64,000 nucleotides of DNA from Archangium violaceum (GTDB lineage: Bacteria; Myxococcota; Myxococcia; Myxococcales; Myxococcaceae): positions 1,364,001 through 1,428,000 of the forward strand of contig NZ_CP069338.1 of assembly GCF_016859125.1 (NCBI RefSeq), given 5' to 3'. This document shows, piece after piece, positions 1 through 4,329 of the stretch. The translations under genes and the position numbers were made by a program. The stretch's first letter is position 1; each line of letters begins with the position of its first letter. The notes below the pieces were generated by a model. The model worked only from the letters and a program-made list of their open reading frames with translations, had not been told where the DNA came from and ran no database searches.

Positions 1-974
1 CCCAGCCCGTGCCCCTGCCCCCCGGTGCCGTCCGCGCGGTGGAAGCGGTCGAAGATGTTGGGCAGCTCCGAGGCGGGAATGCCCACGCCCCAGTCACGCA
101 CCTGGACGATGGCCAACCCTGGCGTGAGGGAGAGTGTCACCTCGACGCGCCGCTGCTCTCCTCCGTACTTCACCGCATTGGAGAGCAGGTTGTTGAGGAT
201 GTACCGCACACGCTCGGCATCGAAGGAGAGCTCCACCGGCTGCGCCCCGCCCTTCAGGGAGAAGTCCACCTGGGACTGGAGCTCACGCCACTCGCGGACC
301 ACTTCCTGGAGGAAGGCCGCGAGCTCGCCGGGCTCGCGTTGCAGCGCCACCTTGCCCTCGGCCAGACGCGCCGCGTCGAGGATGGAGGTGACGAGTGAGT
401 TCATCCGGTCGAGCTGGCGGAGGATGGCCTCGGTGCACTTCCTCTCCTCGGCCGAATCTCGCTCCCCCTGCTTGCGCAACAGCAACTGGGCGTTGAGCCG
501 CGCGGAGCTCAGGGGCGTCTTGATTTCATGAGCCACCCAGTTGAGCATCTCCTCGCGCGCGGCGCCGCCGGGGCGGGCCGCGCGGTCCCCCGCGGTCATG
601 GCCTCCTCGCGTGGCTCCACGGTGGGACGCGAGCGCAACACCCGCATCACCGCGGCCTCGAAGGTGTCGAGATCCACGGGCTTGGAGAGGAAGACATCGG
701 CCTCCTCCAGCCCGCTGGGGTGCGCGGCGCTCAGGAGCAGGAAGGGGACCGTGCCCAGACGCGGGTCGGCCCGCAACGTCCGGAGCAACTCCACCCCGGT
801 GCGCCGGGGCATCATGTGATCGCTCACCACCAGGTCCGGCCGCTCCGTCCGGGCCAGCAGCAGGGCCTCTTCTCCATTGTGGGCCCGCAGGGCGCGATGA
901 CCCAGGTCCTCCACCACCTGGGCGAAGATCTCGAGCATCGCCTCCTCATCCTCCGCGATGAGGATGAGGCTCAT
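1..974 (-). CDS. Receiver-histidine kinase hybrid (C-terminus cut by window edge)
   Basis: Translating the minus strand from the ATG at 974 gives an N-terminal receiver domain (acidic pocket AEDEE near residues 7-11, phospho-acceptor in VVSDHMMP, conserved lysine in FLSKPVD). A HisKA domain follows with H-box WVAHEIKTPLSS, then a HATPase_c domain whose G1 (DWGVGIP), F box (FDRFHR) and start of G2 (GHGLG) are visible before the sequence runs out. The order receiver first, then transmitter, and the lack of membrane segments indicate a soluble sensor kinase whose input is phosphorylation or a protein partner. The start codon overlaps the stop of the upstream KaiC-like gene as ATGA, so the two are very probably co-translated and may form one signalling unit. 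The last few dozen residues lie outside the window. Confidence 0.9.
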   Translation of the reverse strand, partial: MSLILIAEDEEAMLEIFAQVVEDLGHRALRAHNGEEALLLARTERPDLVVSDHMMPRRTGVELLRTLRADPRLGTVPFLLLSAAHPSGLEEADVFLSKPVDLDTFEAAVMRVLRSRPTVEPREEAMTAGDRAARPGGAAREEMLNWVAHEIKTPLSSARLNAQLLLRKQGERDSAEERKCTEAILRQLDRMNSLVTSILDAARLAEGKVALQREPGELAAFLQEVVREWRELQSQVDFSLKGGAQPVELSFDAERVRYILNNLLSNAVKYGGEQRRVEVTLSLTPGLAIVQVRDWGVGIPASELPNIFDRFHRADGTGGQGHGL

Positions 975-2470
975 TCCTCACTCCCTCCGATGCGCGAACC
1001 AATGGGCTGGGCCTGGCCCGTCAGCAGGCCCGCGGCCGAGCGCATCGGGTTGAGCACGCGGATCCCCGTGTCGTTGATCTCGAACTCGCGCAGGTCCCCG
1101 TCGTACTTGCTGTCACGCATCTTGAGGATGGACATGACGCGGTGGATGCGCCCGCGCAGCTCCACGTAGCGCAGCAGCAGCAGGTTCTCGCCGAGGATGG
1201 CGATGGGCGTGTCACTGAAGTCCAGCTCGGTGCCGGCGATCTTCGACACCTCCTTGGTGAACAGGGACGTCACCCCCGCCCTCCGCAGGTGCACGCTGAA
1301 GGCCGCCAGGAAGGTGCGACGCCGCTCCGGGTCCACGATGGAGAGCTCGAGCTCCGTCAGCCCGTCGATCACCAGCCGCCGGACTCCCTGCCGGACCACC
1401 TCCCGGAGGATCTGGTCGACGAGGACATCCGCCTCCAGCTCGGAGGGAGGCTGGTGCATCAACGTCATCGCCCCGCTCGCCAGCGCGTCCCGCACGTCCA
1501 GACCGATGCGCTGAGCCCGGGCCAACAGCGAGGCGGAAGGCTCGAAGAAGGAGACGAGGAGCGTCTTCTCCCCCTGGCGGGCCCCTTCCGCAGCGAAGTG
1601 CGCGGCGAGCAGCGTCTTGCCGATGCCCATGCTGCCCGCCAGCAGGGTGGTGCTCTGCACGGGCAACCCGCCATCCATCAGCGCGTCGAACTCGGGCAGG
1701 CCGAAGCCGGCCCGGGTCCGGGGCGGGACGAGCTCCTTGCCGGAGGGGACGAGGGCCTCGAGCCTTGGAATGATCTCCACCCCCTCGGTACCGATCCGCA
1801 GGAGATGCTCTCCCGGCAGATGAGGCCGGCCGCGCAGCTTGATGACCTCCATCCGGCGATGGCGGCGCCCTCCCTGGGGACTCACCCACAGCGAGATGAT
1901 GCCATCCACCGTCGTCGCTTCCGGCAGCGCCATCAACTTCTCGAGGGGGTACTCGGTGGTGAAGAGCCCGATGCAGTCCGTGGCGGACAGCCCGATGCCC
2001 AGCTCATACAGGAACTCGCGCAGCCGGGCCTCGTCCTGCCACAAGTCACGGATGGAGCGCAGCCCGTCGATGAAGAGCAGCTTCGCGCCGCGCTCACGCA
2101 CGGTGTGCAGCAGGGTGTCCCGCGCCTCCTTGGCGCCCTTCTTCAGCGACGCGTAGGCACTCACGAGGAAGAGCTTCTCGCCCAACAGCTCGCGGCGGAA
2201 GAAGGGGAAGCCGGAGAGCGCATCCACCAGCTTGTCGTGCGGCTCGGAGGTGACGGTGGCGAGCACCACGGGCAACCCGCGAGCGGCGGCGAGAAAGGCC
2301 ACCTGGCTGCAGAGGATGGTCTTACCGCAGCCGGGGTTTCCGGCCACGATGAGGGTCTGGCGCCGGGGGATGCCACCGCCCAGCAACACGTCGAAGCTCT
2401 GGATACCGGTCTCGAACAACGATTGGGTGCTACGGCTGTCCATCATGAGCTCGGAGTGAGGGGGGACCAT
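971..2470 (-). CDS. Tandem KaiC-like RecA-fold ATPase
   Basis: This 499-residue protein has two KaiC-type RecA domains, as in cyanobacterial KaiC (about 519 residues). The first begins at FDVLLGGGIPRR with Walker A GNPGCGKT. The second begins at FDALMDGGLPV with Walker A GSMGIGKT. Walker B-like strands are LLFIDGL in domain 1 and RLVIDGL in domain 2. No kaiA or kaiB is visible nearby, so an oscillator role is not implied. KaiC-like proteins outside cyanobacteria usually act as ATPase regulators of signalling. The gene is followed, with a 4-base ATGA overlap, by a receiver-histidine kinase, which suggests that it controls or is controlled by that kinase. The ATG at 2470 gives a short N-terminal leader; methionines about nine codons downstream are alternatives. 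Confidence 0.88.
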   Translation of the reverse strand: MVPPHSELMMDSRSTQSLFETGIQSFDVLLGGGIPRRQTLIVAGNPGCGKTILCSQVAFLAAARGLPVVLATVTSEPHDKLVDALSGFPFFRRELLGEKLFLVSAYASLKKGAKEARDTLLHTVRERGAKLLFIDGLRSIRDLWQDEARLREFLYELGIGLSATDCIGLFTTEYPLEKLMALPEATTVDGIISLWVSPQGGRRHRRMEVIKLRGRPHLPGEHLLRIGTEGVEIIPRLEALVPSGKELVPPRTRAGFGLPEFDALMDGGLPVQSTTLLAGSMGIGKTLLAAHFAAEGARQGEKTLLVSFFEPSASLLARAQRIGLDVRDALASGAMTLMHQPPSELEADVLVDQILREVVRQGVRRLVIDGLTELELSIVDPERRRTFLAAFSVHLRRAGVTSLFTKEVSKIAGTELDFSDTPIAILGENLLLLRYVELRGRIHRVMSILKMRDSKYDGDLREFEINDTGIRVLNPMRSAAGLLTGQAQPIGSRIGGSEE

Positions 2471-2889: not shown

Positions 2890-4329
2890 ATGCGACGCTT
2901 GTTTCCGCGTACTCGGAGTGAATCACGAGGGGCCTCGACGTGGGCCGGGCCGGCCGCTCGAACCGAGCCGCGTCGAAGTGGAGCTGCCGCGTTGATCGCG
3001 GCGGCCGTCGCCATGGTGGCGCTGGCTCTGCCGGCCCATGCGGCGACCTATTCGGTCAGCGGCAACCAGCTCCTGAAGGATGGGGTTCCCTACGAGCCGC
3101 GTGGGGTCAACAAGATGTCGGTCTGGGGCTTCAATGCCGCGGAAACCACCCCGTGGGGCGTGGAGATCCTGCGGGAACACATCGACATGAAGCTGACGTC
3201 CCTGACCCAGATGAGGGACATCGTCGTCGACGCCCGCGCCAATGGAAAGGTCGTGATCCTGTCGGCCACCTGGTACGACAACGACGCCCTTCCGGGTGGG
3301 AAGACTCCCTATCCCGCGAACCAGTTGCTGGGCGTGGTGCCTTCCGCGGATCCCCGCTGGGAACCGGTGAAGAACCGCTGGCGTGAAATCGCCAATTACT
3401 TCAAGGGCCAGTCGGATGTGTGGTTCGACGTCTGGAACGAGCCCTACAACTGGGATGTGACCAAGCCGGAGGGCTACACCGAGGAGCTCTGGTTGAGTGA
3501 GATGAGCACCCTGGTCGACAACATCCGGAGCACGGGCGCCAACAACATCATCCTCGTTCCAGGGGCGCTGATGGGACAGGGCGAGAAGGTCCTCCTCAAC
3601 AAGGGAGGCGCGCTCCTCTCCGGGCGCAGCAACATCCTCTTCGGGGTGCATTGCTATTCGGGGCAGTGGTGGCAGGACCAGGCGAACATCGAGACCCGCT
3701 TCCAGAACCTGCTGAACAAGGGCATTCCCTTCATCGTCTCCGAGTATGGCGCCGGGCACCCGTTCGCCAACATCCTGGGCGCCGCGCGCGCCAAGCGGAT
3801 CGGTTCGCTCGCGTGGCTGTGGAAGCACGACAACGACGACAAGGAAGCCCTGTTGAAGGAGGACGGCACGCCCAATGACACCAACAACTACACACTGGGC
3901 TCGAGCGTGAAGAACTTCGGACTCGGGGCGCGCAACGGCGGGGCCCAGCAGGTGCAGAACGGCGGCTTCGATCAGGGTGAGACCAGCTGGGGCGTGATGG
4001 GCAGCAACTCCTATTCGGTGGCCAGCAACGGCGTTCTGCAGCTGGGTAACGTCATCCTGGGCGGCGGCCGCGGGCAGAACGTCATCAGCCCGAAACCCAA
4101 TACGCTCTACACCCTGCGGGCGCGCGGGAAGGTCGGTACCGCCGGTGAGGTCATGCAGGTCCTGGTGAAGGGCAACAACTACAGCCATACGCTCGAGTTC
4201 AAGAGCGCCTCGTGGGAGGAGAAGGTCCTCACCTTCCTCTCCCCCGCGGACGTGACCTGGATGCAGATCAACCTGACCAAGGGCCCGGGCTCGCCCGGCT
4301 ACGTCGACTACGTCTCCCTGGTGAGGTAG
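2890..4329 (+). CDS. Secreted glycoside hydrolase family 5 enzyme with C-terminal beta-sandwich module
   Basis: The 479-residue product starts with an Arg-rich n-region and a hydrophobic stretch ending ALPAHA, a type I signal peptide cleaved near residue 51. The (beta/alpha)8 domain carries the family 5 acid/base Glu184 in FDVWNEPYN and the nucleophile Glu285 in IVSEYGAG. GH5 enzymes are retaining endo-glycosidases acting on beta-1,4 glucans or mannans; the substrate is not decided here. Residues about 360-479, beginning NGGFDQGETSW, look like a galactose-binding-type carbohydrate module. The gene stands alone between opposite-strand genes and has a very good ribosome-binding site at the chosen ATG. 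Likely role: extracellular polysaccharide degradation. Confidence 0.9.
   Translation: MRRLFPRTRSESRGASTWAGPAARTEPRRSGAAALIAAAVAMVALALPAHAATYSVSGNQLLKDGVPYEPRGVNKMSVWGFNAAETTPWGVEILREHIDMKLTSLTQMRDIVVDARANGKVVILSATWYDNDALPGGKTPYPANQLLGVVPSADPRWEPVKNRWREIANYFKGQSDVWFDVWNEPYNWDVTKPEGYTEELWLSEMSTLVDNIRSTGANNIILVPGALMGQGEKVLLNKGGALLSGRSNILFGVHCYSGQWWQDQANIETRFQNLLNKGIPFIVSEYGAGHPFANILGAARAKRIGSLAWLWKHDNDDKEALLKEDGTPNDTNNYTLGSSVKNFGLGARNGGAQQVQNGGFDQGETSWGVMGSNSYSVASNGVLQLGNVILGGGRGQNVISPKPNTLYTLRARGKVGTAGEVMQVLVKGNNYSHTLEFKSASWEEKVLTFLSPADVTWMQINLTKGPGSPGYVDYVSLVR

Follow-up and report, generated by a model that had tools for sequence, protein, structure and literature searches.

At one end of a 64,000-nucleotide stretch of Archangium violaceum DNA (G000:C1:1364001-1428000, hereafter the window, within a single-contig genome of 12.68 Mb), a kaiC-like gene is followed by a gene for a histidine kinase (HK) that begins with a receiver domain (REC), and we found that the two form a conserved module. 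Among the KaiC-like genes that we surveyed, the general unit is KaiC plus a REC, and the kinase is one appendage of that REC, a point missed by the earlier note on this DNA. We tentatively read the pair as a KaiC-gated soluble histidine kinase, an interpretation predicted from sequence to which we give slightly less than an even chance. Both genes lie on the (-) strand. The kaiC-like open reading frame (ORF) occupies window positions 971..2470 and specifies a protein of 499 amino acids (aa) with a double KaiC ATPase domain (PF06745, E 1.4e-69). The rec-hk gene occupies positions 1..974, which encode the N-terminal 324 of its 360 aa; the gene continues for another 109 bases beyond the window, to G000:C1:1363892, and the complete 360-aa kinase is found in the genome at L009:11892-12974. 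The ORF coordinates place the kaiC stop and the kinase start within a shared ATGA at 971..974, and the four-base overlap of the KaiC-like gene with a receiver-HisKA-HATPase gene, as described in the earlier note, is therefore real. The GC content at third codon positions is 0.91 for both genes, as expected for genuine coding frames in this genome.

We sampled 58 genomes of the family and found a KaiC orthologue at an identity of at least 58% in 19 of them, the genome of A. violaceum itself counted in. One further genome (G024) carried a KaiC relative at 45% identity, and the next matches were paralogues at 41% or less. A REC-HK gene lies directly downstream of KaiC in all 20 of the family genomes that have KaiC, and when the kinase was used as the query in the same 58 genomes, the identical 20 KaiC-linked loci were recovered. 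The relatives found belong to the Myxococcaceae and include Corallococcus, and the four-base overlap is retained in 25 of 26 distinct pairs of KaiC followed by REC-HK. The earlier note would have given way had the two genes not been co-conserved in relatives; because every KaiC-bearing family genome keeps REC-HK downstream and the overlap is kept as well, we conclude that they are.

Fifty-one bases downstream of the pair, outside the window, a gene at L009:6402-11840(-) encodes an 1812-aa protein that combines domains of the Ser/Thr kinase, AAA, GAF, and histidine-kinase ATPase types. A three-gene operon that includes this gene was considered and rejected: in 23 orthologous loci, over the approximately 1.8–1.9 kb past the kinase that the check spanned, no similar gene occurred at the same position and strand, and only scattered kinase-domain matches were found elsewhere. 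Because these loci lack a conserved third gene, we take the module to consist of two genes.

The constancy of the receiver emerged from a census of 231 distinct KaiC-like sequences. These were gathered by similarity to a few queries (the window proteins, L012, L199, L167, and alignment A2), and because of this sampling the census is not unbiased and describes only this part of the KaiC family. After exclusion of three KaiC genes truncated at the end of a contig or locus, a REC adjoined 204 of the 228 scorable genes by script classification, mostly as a stand-alone gene; the figure was 162 of 175 for genes from the window's phylum and 42 of 53 for those from others. The chance of a REC neighbor in this genome is about 1.5–3% (150 REC matches scored of 281 candidates; approximately 10,000 genes estimated). 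Among all 231 genes, 155 were followed by a REC without a kinase (41 of these also had a kinase directly upstream) and 26 by a REC-HK; a REC preceded KaiC in 18 and an HK-REC hybrid in four, and one was a KaiC-REC fusion. Seven had a kinase but no nearby REC, 17 had neither, and three were cut. One gene (L243) was scored as lacking a REC, though inspection shows an overlapping REC in another frame; we left the count unchanged.

Adjacency took several forms. Alphaproteobacterial and betaproteobacterial plasmid copies had KaiC and then a receiver in all nine of the loci examined, of 28 hits, and the REC of actinobacterial KaiCs, and of some others, is encoded upstream instead. The natural KaiC-REC fusion is a 685-codon open frame (L250:1221-3276(+)), and a REC-KaiC fusion of the opposite order, from a Bacillota metagenome-assembled genome (MAG), lies at L173:2625-3798(+); the latter fell under the census threshold and is outside the 231. 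Both fusions would be useful for structural work. The receiver gene upstream of a Coriobacteriia KaiC (L165:2314-2995(+)) opens, as judged by eye, with a MerR-type DNA-binding-like domain.

The A. violaceum genome has six genes with at least two KaiC domains. In four of them (the window gene and the ones at 1.02, 2.32, and 3.46 Mb) the next gene downstream codes for a receiver, and the one at 6.60 Mb is overlapped upstream by a gene for a REC-KaiB fusion. This fusion (L011:8247-8975(-)) carries the only KaiB domain found in a genome-wide PF07689 search, and so the absence of kaiB from the window locus was correctly described in the earlier note. The KaiC beside the fusion scores 402 bits, just below the 408-bit cut-off of the NCBI KaiC model. 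At approximately 0.447 Mb, a three-domain KaiC protein of 737 aa (L010:6615-8828(-)) is followed after 38 bases by a GAF-GAF histidine kinase and is overlapped upstream by a 142-aa gene with no Pfam match.

The RECs found downstream of KaiC have an invariant active site. Asp9, Asp52 (the phospho-acceptor position, at 819..821 in the window), and Lys98 are present in 181 of 181, and because all three are kept, these RECs look phosphorylatable. Among 22 upstream-type RECs, Asp52 is present in 15 and Asp9 in nine. We compared the REC of the kinase with these receivers in a quick tree of RECs thinned by identity, which included 30 background RECs from this genome that were the best-scoring among the matches listed and not a random draw. 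The 19 REC-HK receivers left after thinning all fell into one clade (support 99), which lay on the same side of the tree as the RECs that partner KaiC downstream. Beyond a branch with support 93 were 28 of the 30 background RECs, 20 of the 21 KaiC RECs of the upstream type, 30 of 31 RECs from the other kinases near KaiC genes that carry a receiver, and two of six further RECs. The pattern was not perfect: the downstream partner REC L220 was misplaced on the background side, background L320 fell within the partner RECs, and L323, UP_L214, OTHK_L164, and four further RECs were on the partner side, mostly on long branches. In a second quick, thinned tree, to which orphan paralogues of the kinase were added and from which BG_L323 and orphan L349 were omitted, the REC-HK clade (98) again fell with the KaiC partners (90); the 29 background RECs that remained were all on the other side, and SD_L220 was again among them. 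REC alignments are short, and many forks in these trees are open. Judged from the two quick trees (supports 93 and 90), the kinase REC is related to KaiC-partner receivers, and not to other RECs of the genome. The pair thus belongs with the kaiC-receiver gene modules of the third context in PMC3164672, as its receiver is directly beside kaiC and is kin to KaiC-partner receivers.

A quick tree of thinned KaiC rows recovered the same REC-HK clade (support 99). Its sister is a Chloroflexi MAG locus (L159) in the KaiC tree (97) and in the first REC tree (80); the second REC tree leaves the placement of L159 open. Because the REC at this locus stands alone and the kinase is a separate gene upstream, the likely history, as far as the trees tell it, is that a kinase was added to the REC of a KaiC-REC pair. 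A different receiver-first kinase is located directly upstream of KaiC in another paralogue group of KaiC followed by REC (L101, L105, L107, L113, L115, L122, L123, and others), giving the order REC-HK, KaiC, REC in a row. Kinship of our kinase REC with the RECs of those kinases was looked for and not found: 27 of them make up a separate clade (100) within the background RECs.

Loci without KaiC offer a natural contrast. A second full-length REC-HK lineage, 41–48% identical to the kinase, was present at 28 loci in the same 58 genomes, and no KaiC was found in the 18 of these loci examined with flanks, one of which (L344) begins near a contig end. We pooled 99 distinct proteins from 115 loci (identical rows merged; RECs of at least 80 bits only), and set one contig-edge orphan row, with Asn at the His position, apart from the 51 other orphans. 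The phospho-histidine, which is His149 of the motif HEIKTP in the window kinase (528..530), is retained in 46 of 47 KaiC-adjacent kinases versus one of 51 orphans. At this position the orphans have Gln (23), Arg (20), Lys (3), Glu (3), Ala (1), or His (1), and in nine of them the kinase half is largely missing from the frame. REC Asp52 and Lys98 are present in all 99 proteins, the 51 orphans included. The sole KaiC-adjacent kinase without the His is that of G024 (L063), which has Gln instead; it adjoins a KaiC whose second KaiC domain (CII) is without the C-terminal finger-motif region in this assembly, and the kinase tree places it among the orphans (100), whereas the REC tree does not fix its position. 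The sequences thus point to a kinase that remained catalytic only beside an intact KaiC, and to a receiver preserved throughout. That nearly all KaiC-less sister kinases have lost the active-site His suggests KaiC as the working partner of the kinase and as the reason why the kinase is kept active. The orphans themselves (for example, G000:C1:8471709-8472713(+), and also L338:6001-7005) constitute a widespread combination of receiver and pseudo-kinase that has intact receiver residues and no KaiC neighbor.

Both proteins of the window pair have the features expected of their families. The KaiC-like protein matches solved KaiC structures by sequence, with E as low as 1.1e-51, and its two PF06745 domains are located at 1760..2413 (the first KaiC domain, CI; G000:C1:1365760-1366413) and 1049..1702 (CII; G000:C1:1365049-1365702). 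From the sequence and alignment, the Walker A motif of CI is GNPGCGKT (residues 44-51, 2318..2341) and that of CII is GSMGIGKT (residues 279-286, 1613..1636). All 203 KaiCs compared have the CI finger residues K211 and R213, and the CII residues K450 and R452 are present in 200 and 198 of them. The two domains, the Walker A motifs, and the finger residues place the protein in the KaiC ATPase superfamily, in agreement with its earlier description as a double-domain KaiC homologue. In the HMMER alignment and column counts, S431/T432 of cyanobacterial KaiC correspond to Ala424-Ile425 (1196..1201), which offer no acceptor. Autophosphorylation, which had been put forward as an assay for this protein, is therefore not expected on the clock sites. 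Residue 424, which aligns with S431, is Ala in 23 and Ser in three of the 26 KaiCs followed by REC-HK; of the 155 followed by REC, 85 have Ser at this position, 31 have Glu, and 30 have Ala.

In the kinase, the REC (PF00072, Response_reg, E 6.4e-16) spans residues 4-109 (648..965), HisKA (PF00512, E 9.6e-16) spans residues 139-207 (354..560), and HATPase_c (PF02518, E 1.2e-27) spans residues 252-358 of the full gene, of which the part in the window is 1..221. A Pfam search of the protein found no further kind of domain, and the layout suggests that the kinase is soluble. The REC acidic pocket, Asp, and Lys are intact, as are the H, N, and G boxes, which fits an active receiver-first histidine kinase. 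Next to the pair, a divergent gene at window 2890-4329(+) resembles, by eye, a secreted family-5-type glycoside hydrolase.

If the pair is a KaiC-gated kinase, the KaiC-like protein would form an ATP-hydrolyzing double-ring hexamer in which the clock sites are not autophosphorylated, and this ring would sense nucleotide state. The kinase, whose only recognized candidate for a sensor domain is an N-terminal receiver of the KaiC-accompanying kind, would dock on the ring through that receiver. The nucleotide or assembly state of the ring, tuned by phosphorylation of Asp52, would then set the HisKA-HATPase activity, and the kinase may hand phosphate to response regulators encoded elsewhere. The idea in the earlier note of a nucleotide-state switch for signaling is compatible with the conserved ATPase and finger residues and with the loss of the His where KaiC is missing; the binding and its direction are predictions.

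Several observations weigh against this reading. In the CII catalytic pair, Phe309 takes the place of the first glutamate, and so CII ATPase activity is not certain. A mean-field direct coupling analysis (DCA) of 181 KaiC/REC pairs over 587 columns had 72 effective sequences and gave no convincing intra-protein contacts, and we discarded the inter-protein ranking. By the script rule, 24 of the 228 KaiC-like genes have no REC. The contrast in the His between KaiC-adjacent and orphan kinases essentially sets one clade against its sister, so the large counts reflect few independent events; and the orphan REC stays intact without KaiC, so the REC must have some role besides KaiC. Genes may also be adjacent because they are regulated together, with no contact between their products, and the fact that most KaiC-REC pairs are without a kinase fits a reversed flow of the signal at least as well.

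With the flow reversed, KaiC would be the output: the REC would be phosphorylated by its own or other kinases, phosphorylated REC would dock on the ring and switch it, and the ring would do the downstream work, with stand-alone RECs acting likewise on other KaiCs. Because most KaiC-REC pairs have no kinase and because 41 of the 155 have one upstream, giving an order of HK, KaiC, and REC in which KaiC is the natural target, this explanation is nearly as good as that of a KaiC-gated kinase. The invariance of the three REC active-site residues is in its favor, and the decay of the kinase His in the absence of KaiC is what one would expect of a kinase that served KaiC alone. Set against these points is the conservation of the orphan REC, which has neither a working kinase nor a KaiC neighbor. 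A receiver-first layout is usually an input arrangement, and we know of no KaiC output domain or target. On balance, we regard reversed flow as rather doubtful.

The two genes might also be operonic neighbors only, that is, co-expressed signaling genes whose products make no direct contact. Four-base overlaps are common in bacterial operons, and the DCA, with its 72 effective sequences, gave no convincing contacts within either protein. However, adjacency of a REC at the frequency found in the census, in several phyla, in both gene orders, and in fusions, far exceeds the few percent expected, and the REC-HK clade is present in the REC tree and the KaiC tree alike; we therefore consider mere neighborhood improbable. 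A KaiC timer or clock output like cyanobacterial KaiC-SasA, which could draw on the KaiC homology, the kinase partner, and the rhythmic fruiting patterns reported for Myxococcus macrosporus in the available part of a recent survey (PMC11832031), is very improbable indeed and was set aside, given Ala424/Ile425, the lack of KaiB at the locus and of a KaiB domain in the kinase, and scores far below the circadian KaiC models (TIGR02655, 144 versus 546 bits; NF006799, 214 versus 408 bits).

Comparison with known systems separates the KaiC-gated kinase proposed here from the cyanobacterial one. SasA is likewise a kinase partner of KaiC, and the catalytic halves align: NF006800, which we take to be the SasA model, scores 103 bits over kinase residues 139-357 (cut-off 342). 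The N-terminal KaiB-like (thioredoxin-like) domain of SasA is, however, replaced here by PF00072 at residues 4-109, and no PF07689 match was found in the kinase at E 0.001 or better; a layout different from that of the clock-output kinase had already been noticed in the earlier note. The kaiB of a KaiABC or KaiBC oscillator was not found either, as the only KaiB domain is that in the REC-KaiB fusion by another KaiC.

Related gene contexts were described in the available part of the Ramlibacter genome paper of 2011 (PMC3164672), including kaiC followed by a histidine kinase. In its second ("dark-blue") context (Rta_04330/Rta_04340), kaiC is directly followed by a histidine kinase, cotranscription was shown, and the authors called the N-terminal domain of the kinase both remotely receiver-like and SasA/KaiB-like (PMC3164672). 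The KaiCs of that context retain phosphorylatable residues (SY, TY, and SF classes; PMC3164672), whereas ours has Ala-Ile, and the N-terminal domain of our kinase is a canonical Pfam receiver with its active site kept, a distinction from the Rta kinase that is drawn from the published description only. In the third ("black") context, phosphosites are poor and kaiC is frequently followed by a receiver, with receiver and HK as separate neighbors (PMC3164672); here, the REC that partners KaiC is the N-terminus of the kinase, the pairs form a conserved orthologous group, and the kinase His is kept only beside KaiC. The kaiC-REC and kaiC-HK contexts were thus already published in 2011, and the REC-HK fusion pair is a variant of them.

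Archaeal KaiC-like signaling hubs include KaiC-REC fusions in Methanosarcinaceae (cited in PMC5847659). They resemble our pair in joining a KaiC-family ATPase to a receiver domain, and differ in being archaeal and fused and, in the available part of that source, in having no described kinase of the present kind (PMC5847659). A myxobacterial survey of 2024 reported one to seven kaiC genes per genome, no kaiA, and few kaiB, and found fifty myxobacterial KaiCs without phosphosites, posing as a question how such KaiCs act (PMC11832031). It proposes a link to bacteriophytochromes, and its available part mentions neither the adjacent receivers nor the present kinase (PMC11832031). Our literature search, which covered few subscription papers, found no account of the KaiC/REC-HK pair, of the constant REC, or of the contrast in the kinase His.

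A broader generalization is possible, if somewhat doubtful: in non-photosynthetic bacteria, KaiC-family ATPases may generally use REC, and not KaiB, as their docking adaptor, with a core of ring and REC and with varied outputs carried on the REC (nothing, a kinase, KaiB, or KaiC itself), the kinase studied here being kept alive only while its KaiC is intact. If this is true, the KaiC ring would be an ATP-fueled allosteric hub for two-component signaling. The constant receiver partner offers a concrete answer to the question of what KaiCs without phosphosites do outside clocks, namely the predicted binding of KaiC to REC.

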